Shown: piece after piece, positions 8,430-9,766 of the stretch
Layout of the letters: each line of letters starts with the position of its first letter
How positions within the stretch are numbered: position 1 is the stretch's first letter
IMG/VR virus record: IMGVR_UViG_3300025853_000706
Span: 1 to 23,028 of that record
Source of the DNA: a virus
Length of the DNA: 23,028 bases
Direction: 5' to 3' (one strand)
Program-made: the position numbers and the translations under genes
Notes under the pieces: generated by a model
The model's database searches: none
What the model saw: only the letters and a program-made list of their open reading frames with translations
What the model was told of the DNA's origin: nothing

Positions 8430-8442
8430 GAGCGACTAGCGA
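8430..8442 (+). repeat. 13-bp direct repeat, copy 1
   Basis: GAGCGACTAGCGA occurs here and again at 9158-9170, one copy on each side of the first early gene and both in non-coding GC-rich stretches. A looser relative (GCGCGACTAAAGCGCG) lies at 9055-9070. This copy follows a C5/G6 stretch (8410-8430) that can also pair. Confidence 0.6.
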
Positions 8443-8507: not shown

Positions 8508-8924
8508 CTATGCTGACTTTTTCTTGAGTTCGTTGTACCGAGCATCCAATGCGTCAAGCGTACTGGCTGTCTGCTCTGATATGTCGTGGTCGGCAGGGAA
8601 CAACTGCTCTGAAGCTTGTGTTAACAGTGACTTGAGAATCTCGTTGCATTCCAACTGTGTCTGCTGCCATTCGATGTCGCGGTTACGCTGTAGGATTTTG
8701 TCGTTGTCAAGAATTACACCATGTTCTTTATGTTCGATGTAATCGTTAAAGTTGTCATCTTGCAACTCAGTGATCTTCTTGTTTTTTGTGTTCGTGTTCC
8801 AGTCAACATCACTGATGAATTTAGTGATGAAGTATTGAACTGTTGATTTGTGTGTGCGGTCAGACAATGTGAACTCACGGTTGATGTCTCGTGCGAATCC
8901 GTTTGTGTTTGCGTTCTTAGTCAT
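8508..8924 (-). CDS. First leftward early gene, hypothetical helical protein
   Basis: From the ATG at 8924 (AGGAGAACTAAA upstream) the product has 138 residues. It starts MTKNANTNGFARDINREFTL, is polar and mostly helical, with an acidic middle (ITELQDDNFNDYIEHKEHG) and a C-terminal coiled-coil-like part (SEQTASTLDALDARYNELKK). No domain, membrane segment or metal site is recognised. It is the gene nearest the divergent control region and has its own terminator, so it is probably transcribed alone and first. That position is typical of host-takeover or regulatory proteins. The frame is open upstream to 9023 but the leader at 8924 decides the start. Confidence 0.75.
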   Translation of the reverse strand: MTKNANTNGFARDINREFTLSDRTHKSTVQYFITKFISDVDWNTNTKNKKITELQDDNFNDYIEHKEHGVILDNDKILQRNRDIEWQQTQLECNEILKSLLTQASEQLFPADHDISEQTASTLDALDARYNELKKKSA

Positions 8925-9340
8925 TTTAGTTCTCCTAGTTAGCTGCCGAGGAACTGCCCTCGGCTTATGCCCCACACCACAATCATGGCTGCAATCCAAA
9001 GGCAAGGCAGGCTCGGGCGGCATTGGATGATCGCCTACAGCCCGCTTGCGCGAAGCGCGACTAAAGCGCGGGCTGTTAGTCAGCTTATGAACAGATCGCC
9101 TCTATGCGATATGAGCATAAGCTGGCGTGGCGACCACCAATGGGCGAGACTTGCCACGAGCGACTAGCGAGGGTTTGGATGGCAGTTATGATTTGGATGA
9201 TGGGGTTTGCCGAGGTCAGGGCCTCGTCAGATGGCTAGGAGACTGACTAAGTGCAAACACAGACGAGTGAGTGCGGGGCAGCAAGCGGGAGGTCACATTT
9301 TCTGGCCTTTGTGTGTTTGTACAGATGTTAAATTGTGCGG
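8925..9340. other. Non-coding divergent control region rich in hairpins
   Basis: About 415 bases without a convincing gene separate the leftward early and rightward late units. Hairpins include GCCGAGG/CCTCGGC (8945-8951, 8958-8964), CAGCCCGC/GCGGGCTG (9038-9045, 9068-9075) with an inner GCGC-GAA-GCGC, CAGCTTATG/CATAAGCTG (9081-9089, 9116-9124) enclosing ATCGC/GCGAT, CGTGGC/GCCACG (9126-9131, 9153-9158) and CGAGG/CCTCG near 9210-9225. It is GC-richer than its surroundings and short frames here look like noise. It may hold promoters, a packaging site or a structured RNA; no tRNA T-loop is present. Confidence 0.6.
9158..9170 (+). repeat. 13-bp direct repeat, copy 2
   Basis: Second exact copy of GAGCGACTAGCGA, overlapping the base of the CGTGGC/GCCACG hairpin in the divergent region. 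The first copy is at 8430-8442, 728 bases away. Confidence 0.6.
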
Positions 9341-9370
9341 TTGACAAGCCGAGAATAATTGGCTGATAGT
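9341..9370 (+). promoter_or_regulatory. Rightward late promoter candidate
   Basis: A perfect TTGACA (9341-9346) is followed 18 bases on by GATAGT (9365-9370), a 4/6 match to the -10 box. Transcription would start near 9377, within the first of two G7 runs (9371-9377 and 9385-9391), leaving a leader of about 18 bases before the small terminase ATG. It is the only near-consensus promoter seen before the late genes and fits use of the host RNA polymerase. Confidence 0.6.
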
Positions 9371-9394
9371 GGGGGGGAACACAAGGGGGGGCAG

Positions 9395-9766
9395 ATGACC
9401 GAGATTGTGAAGCTTACCGATAAACAGACTGCATTGGTGGATACACTTGTAGCAACAGGCTGTAGCATTACAGAAGCAGCAAAGCTTGCTGGTTACGCTG
9501 ATGGCGAGTCCGGTAGAGTGAGTGCTAGCAAGGCTTTGCGGACAGGACATGTCCAGCAGTACATGATGCAACGGATAGGTGAGAGCTTAGGTCTCAACGC
9601 TACGGTGGCTGCGGCTAAGATGCTGAACTTAGCAAGAGGAGCCAAGAGTGAGTACGTTCAGCTAGAAGCTAGTAAAGATATCTTGGACAGGGCTGGCTTC
9701 AAGGCTCCGGACAAGCACATGCATTTGCATAAGGGTGATATTAGTGTAAGCATAGACTTGAGCTAG
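9395..9766 (+). CDS. terS: Terminase small subunit
   Basis: The 123-residue protein begins MTEIVKLTDKQTALVDTLVA and has the usual small-terminase DNA-binding helix-turn-helix, TGCSITEAAKLAGYADGE (21-38), followed by VSASKALRTGHVQQYM, as in the Terminase_2 family (PF03592): 'LT.kQ..fv', 'teAa..aGY', 's.llr...V...i'. The C-terminal half is helical and ends in a His-rich strand segment (DKHMHLHKGDISVSIDL). It would recognise the packaging site and assemble as an oligomer for the large subunit. The start at 9395 follows AAGGGGGGGCAG; a TTG at 9359 in frame is less likely because it lies in the promoter. The large subunit is 2.4 kb downstream, which is unusual. Confidence 0.82.
   Translation: MTEIVKLTDKQTALVDTLVATGCSITEAAKLAGYADGESGRVSASKALRTGHVQQYMMQRIGESLGLNATVAAAKMLNLARGAKSEYVQLEASKDILDRAGFKAPDKHMHLHKGDISVSIDLS

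Follow-up and report, generated by a model that had tools for sequence, protein, structure and literature searches.

The small hairpins between a leftward gene, here called gene A, and the terminase small-subunit gene terS are pieces of one giant imperfect palindrome of about 450 bases (8858–9307). As judged from sequence comparison, this palindrome is common to many related marine phages, in which it occupies one fixed place, and its two arms stay matched by compensatory changes, some in tracts and some single; it probably has a job at this site. We tentatively favor, as a plausible but far from secure reading, a DNA-level quasi-palindrome of about 450 bp that is renewed by template switching and would act in cis at the junction of early and late genes beside terS. 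The main rival is control of gene A by folded RNA.

Architecture of the palindrome and its coding neighbors

The window analyzed here, 23,028 bases long, corresponds to a complete IMG/VR virus record. A rightward block encodes terS, TerL, a T7-type head-tail connector, and capsid and tail genes, and a second block is read leftward; the hairpin region is the spacer between gene A and terS. The features referred to below are as follows, those of the palindrome being given without strand.

8508–8924, minus strand: gene A, 138 aa, divergent, predicted all-helical hairpin protein; its start region lies within the left arm
8858–9035: left arm of the giant inverted repeat, covering gene A codons 1 to about 22, the ribosome-binding site and the leader
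8945–8964: leader hairpin GCCGAGG-AACTGC-CCTCGGC, local, within the left arm
9037–9076: central hairpin 1, stem 9037–9045/9068–9076 (ACAGCCCGC/GCGGGCTGT), inner GCGC-GAA-GCGC
9081–9124: central hairpin 2, 9-bp stem 9081–9089/9116–9124, internal loop, 5-bp inner stem
9127–9307: right arm of the giant inverted repeat, inverted partner of the left arm
9209–9226: right-arm partner of the leader hairpin, GCCGAGG..CCTCG, inverted counterpart of 8945–8964
9341–9346, plus strand: −35 element TTGACA of the predicted terS promoter, 24 nt upstream of the first G in the G-run pair
9365–9370, plus strand: −10-like GATAGT, after an 18-base spacer from TTGACA
9371–9391, plus strand: G-run pair GGGGGGG-AACACAA-GGGGGGG, runs of equal length
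9395–9766, plus strand: terS, terminase small subunit (phrog_2538, E = 2.7e-12; phrog_51, E = 5.4e-10)

The gene A product is predicted by AF2 to form a helical hairpin (mean pLDDT 94.8). It has no match in Pfam at E ≤ 1 and matches in PHROGs only at E 0.2 or worse, and the model gave no fold match with E ≤ 0.001 in PDB and BFVD. Across loci, gene A falls into several groups whose mutual similarity is undetectable by BLAST.

A preliminary description of this DNA had recorded a dense, GC-rich array of hairpins. The hairpins it named are all present at the positions it gave, and the high GC content is borne out (0.55–0.58 in the hairpin region against 0.40–0.45 in the adjoining genes); the array, however, is a single long inverted repeat, the center of which forms two hairpins. 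The minimum-energy structure is one long rod from 8858 to 9307 with these two hairpins at the tip, and not five hairpins. The region was rightly called structured, since it folds far beyond chance: the plus strand of 8925–9235 reaches −158.7 kcal/mol as RNA (z = −9.0), with z-scores of −6.9 for minus-strand RNA and −6.7 for DNA, and the longer segment 8853–9313 reaches −251.3 kcal/mol on the plus strand (z = −16.4) and −201.2 kcal/mol on the minus strand (z = −10.3). In sliding segments of 775 nt it is the sole strong inverted repeat of the window, scoring 240 against a median of 36. Positions 9174–9307 of the right arm are about 70% complementary to the gene A leader and first codons, and the arm ends about 34 bases upstream of the terS promoter; comparison of its reading frames across loci gave no conserved peptide. 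Bases 8900–9400 are 100% identical in two independent contigs (L087 and L088), which excludes an assembly error.

The preliminary description had also raised an imported, mobile-like repeat cluster, having seen the GCCGAGG arms twice. They appear twice because the right half is the inverted partner of the gene A leader and start. Importation would be in keeping with the short pieces that relatives share in mosaic order and with the recurrence of GAGCGACTAGCGA at 8430 and 9158, but a single architecture is found at one locus throughout the family in unrelated letters, and an exact 16-mer from the repeat matches only seven contigs. In a search for copies elsewhere, the window held a single strong site and a DNA probe matched only itself in the record. 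We regard an imported element as extremely improbable, and this part of the description is not supported. The two GAGCGACTAGCGA copies (8430–8442 and 9158–9170) are exact and lie on either side of gene A; 0.17 are expected within 2 mismatches.

Distribution among related phages

A TerS search of viral contigs yielded 80 loci. In a first survey, the 700 bases upstream of the terS promoter were aligned with themselves, with coding segments as controls, and the best self-complementary match reached 40 bits or more at 46 of 80 unique loci and in 0 of 68 coding controls. A more sensitive local alignment gave scores of 90 or above for 62 of about 85 unique TerS-related loci. A second sample, gathered with the TerS of phage Hodr as query and with overlaps removed, gave 27 of 47 loci against 0 of 37 controls. 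The left arm enters the coding part of gene A in 44 of the 48 strong loci, typically by 50–80 nt, and one arm covers the gene A ribosome-binding site and start codon, again in 44 of 48. On the other side, the right arm in relatives often ends about 55–80 nt upstream of the G-run pair. The stem letters of the leader hairpin covary in several relatives, and its loop AACTGC is kept in most.

Between roughly one quarter and two fifths of loci have no strong palindrome, so it cannot be indispensable to every relative; in one group of 14 loci the corresponding place shows at most a weak one. Loci with a second gene A family, in which the palindrome is weak or missing (L019, L020, L023, L030, L035, L036, L070, L117, L129 and L152), form a natural comparison group. 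Outside the interval 9214–9329, locus L004 is 99% identical to the window; inside it, L004 carries a different right-arm segment of about 335 nt, with a gene-A-like ORF of 31 codons, that we read as a recent recombination inside the palindrome.

The palindrome of Pelagibacter phage Hodr

The closest named phage is an isolate, Pelagibacter phage EXVC031P Hodr (OQ414635). Its gene order equals that of the window, and its intergenic palindrome, which bears no annotation in the Hodr record, is longer and better paired (456 nt, z = −12.3; 179 of 192 pairs, or 93%, Watson-Crick), with a perfect run of 99 bp. It differs from the window in lacking the G-run pair and in having arms that reach into both gene A and terS. 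In the Hodr clade as well, complementarity continues into the coding sequence of these two genes: under strict scoring of the outer coding arms, five relatives and Hodr beat every shuffled version, Hodr only marginally (30 against a shuffle maximum of 26; for L431 the values are 61.5 and 25). Hodr on Pelagibacter HTCC1062 is an isolated host-phage pair that carries the palindrome and allows direct testing.

Two other origins were considered and rejected. An inverted chimera arising as an artefact of metagenome amplification does not suit arms that are mostly 65–80% alike, that covary, and that occur in many samples and also in an isolate. A decayed duplicate of gene A, taken alone, does not explain why complementarity is kept across loci whereas the right-arm reading frame is not; the right arm of L003 and L004 does contain a gene-A-like ORF of 31 codons, but in the Hodr clade the arm continues into terS.

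Covariation of the two arms

Pairing is conserved in relatives through compensatory changes, which upholds the structural claim of the preliminary description. In 70 ordered pairs of relatives, which are not independent of one another, 318 Watson-Crick pairs had changed on both sides and remained paired, where 38.8 would be expected if the sides changed independently. An alignment of 14 sequences showed double changes in 96 pairs against 65 when shuffled and 46–67 when slid, the percentage paired being inflated here by derivation of the structure from those same sequences; a three-sequence alignment gave 23 double changes against 8.4, and 1–6 when slid. In the Hodr clade, compensatory changes exceed expectation 5.6-fold among non-coding pairs; the factor falls to 3.5 for pairs that are coding on the left side and to 1.75 for pairs that are coding on both.

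The changes are also clustered. After a compensatory change, another follows within 2 nt with a frequency of 0.64, compared with 0.13 after a non-compensatory change, and isolated compensatory changes account for 70 of 217. Matched changes thus fall in tract-like clusters on both arms, the pattern of a quasi-palindrome maintained by template switching, and this clustering, together with the long perfect runs, is as expected if one arm is copied onto the other by fold-back. That the halves are re-matched despite sequence drift suggests that the DNA folds back on itself.

Template switching could also regenerate a palindrome in a tolerant spacer with no use to the phage. The clustering of compensatory changes and the 8 of 37 loci with long perfect runs are consistent with such a mutational by-product, as are the many mismatches left unrepaired and the absence of a G.T preference in the Hodr clade. 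Yet very long palindromes tend to be unstable and to be selected against, and this one persists at a fixed place, seen in each of two independent samples, and reaches into two genes. We consider a by-product unlikely.

The terS promoter, the G-run pair and packaging

The predicted terS promoter, which lies beyond the span covered by the preliminary description, is near-invariant. TTGAC is present within 60 nt upstream in 97 of 97 loci with the G-motif, at 22–26 nt in 95 of them. Among 55 representatives, the promoter is the top sigma70-like match of the region in 44, and the predicted transcription start falls inside the first G-run, also in 44. The two G-runs are of equal length in 91 of 97 unique loci, against 65.6 expected if independent; they vary together as 7/7, 6/6, 8/8 or 5/5 around spacers of 2–8 bases, and the exact 21-mer of the pair occurs in 85 contigs. 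Because its distance to the terS start varies, the pair is not a ribosome-binding site, and start-site slippage or a G-quadruplex are possibilities.

The palindrome, the G-run pair or both might be a packaging start, cos or pac, recognized by TerS. Like such sites, the region adjoins the terminase genes, directly upstream of terS, and is found once per genome, and the G-run pair lies at one place in each of the 15 near-full-length contigs where it was found, one of which has an extra short match. Contig ends also look commoner within about 250 bases upstream of terS in an informal count by eye, although these could be assembly breaks at the palindrome as well as physical ends. Near-full-length contigs, however, break at many positions, and Hodr and its relatives have the palindrome without the G-run pair. 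A packaging start in this strict sense is, in our judgment, improbable.

A role of the G-run pair as a universal packaging signal was rejected, since unrelated contigs with the motif lack the giant palindrome, some G-run matches resemble T7-type promoters, and the Hodr clade does without the pair. The form G7-A(N3-4)A-G7 also turns up near terminase genes of phages that are not related to the window, in some cases on the strand opposite terS (L236 at 4480, L190 at 2395, L258 at 3336, L193 at 7425, L272 at 2929 and L238 at 2751); the L238 motif, directly after TerL, resembles a T7-type promoter (GACTATAGGG). Locus L203 (contig 3300035698_034795) carries G7-AGTAA-G7 three times with C-runs just before, and represents a different repeat family.

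RNA or DNA

The preliminary description had offered a structured small RNA as one reading. The structure is real; for the small RNA, there was no Rfam match at the gathering score for the palindrome region, no promoter at its edges and no consistent strand bias. A first count of mismatches, G.T 520 against A.C 226, pointed toward a folded plus-strand RNA. In the window clade, plus-strand mismatches relative to arm composition are 2.2 for GA/CT and 1.6 for GT/AC, and among non-coding pairs G.A remains in excess (2.2-fold relative to arm composition, interval 1.7–3.0). Neutral plus-strand sites are likewise C-poor, so the window-clade bias is ambiguous, and within the Hodr clade G.T and A.C arise by single changes in nearly equal numbers in each class (417/462, 317/331 and 153/133). 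In view of the composition skew and this equality, the strand signature was dropped as proof of RNA. A test for sigma70-like promoters gave no enrichment at either palindrome edge or at the center, and was positive at the terS promoter (31 of 43 below 0.05).

These results bear on two RNA-level explanations. A non-coding plus-strand RNA running across both arms would be favored by the stronger fold on the plus than on the minus strand and by purine-rich mismatches; it has no Rfam match and no plus-strand promoter near the left edge, and the bias is much weaker in the second clade, so that we hold it to be very improbable. In the other, a leftward transcript that begins near the right end of the palindrome would fold back and lock the gene A ribosome-binding site and first 20 or so codons, so that translation of gene A would require a shorter transcript or a processing step. 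The position of the left arm over the gene A translation start in most loci fits such control, including its entry into the coding part in 44 of 48 strong loci, and the complementarity spans the start codon and coding part and covaries, the right arm encodes no peptide, and the loop of the leader hairpin is conserved. Set against this, there is no enriched leftward sigma70-like promoter at the right edge or center, minus-strand RNA folds more weakly, and its wobbles, which read as A.C on the plus strand, are not favored. Fold-back control of gene A is unlikely on this balance, and it is nevertheless the rival that we take most seriously.

A candidate DNA fold-back element beside terS

The lack of a consistent RNA-strand bias, together with the clustering of changes, favors a DNA fold-back element. 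A single strand, or an extruded cruciform, would form a long rod tipped by two short hairpins. The tracking of one arm by the other would come largely from fold-back copying, that is, template switching during replication, and the palindrome may owe its persistence to a cis-acting role of the DNA structure next to terS, for replication or for the start of packaging. Such a role is suggested by the fixed place between the leftward, putatively early operon and the rightward, putatively late operon that begins with terS. Structured RNA in any transcript across the palindrome could then be a side effect. The plus-strand mismatch bias of the window clade and the left arm lying over the gene A translation start count against a DNA-level element.

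A stronger version of this proposal is that the palindrome is a required cis element in a marine phage family, in which the demand for matched arms takes precedence over sequence conservation and molds the coding parts of gene A and terS, two non-homologous genes, at the same time; we find this version doubtful. Long palindromes are normally purged, and here one is kept at a fixed place with halves that change together while their letters have drifted beyond recognition. This points to an unrecognized replication or packaging step that depends on DNA structure, or to an extreme form of template-switch mutation that steers gene evolution. Among the openly licensed papers searched, none described such a palindrome in these phages.

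Comparison with known systems

Phage pac and cos sites share with the palindrome a position upstream of the terS start or overlapping it; to our knowledge, known cos and pac sites are not giant palindromes. Structured leaders in divergent control regions are familiar from the lambda N leader, with its RNase III hairpin, and from the put sites of HK022. The gene A leader resembles them in being structured, in its divergent setting and in belonging to an early gene, but it has no conserved put- or nut-like letters and no Rfam match, and its halves match each other instead of a common consensus.

The transposase mRNAs of IS10 and IS50 are subject to fold-back inhibition, in which the repeats are short element ends. 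A transcript with both arms of the phage palindrome would similarly hide a ribosome-binding site; the predicted phage structure differs in being a rod of about 450 nt that adjoins terS, with no transposon. Template-switch correction of quasi-palindromes is known from bacteria and phage T4, where the known cases are short stems. As in those cases, imperfect inverted repeats are re-matched in short tracts, and compensatory changes in the window family are clustered; unlike them, the phage arms measure 100–250 nt or longer, are found family-wide and extend into coding sequence. The underlying principles, template-switch correction of quasi-palindromes and translational control by fold-back, are both established; the size of this palindrome, its family-wide persistence at one site and its reach into two genes appear to be new.
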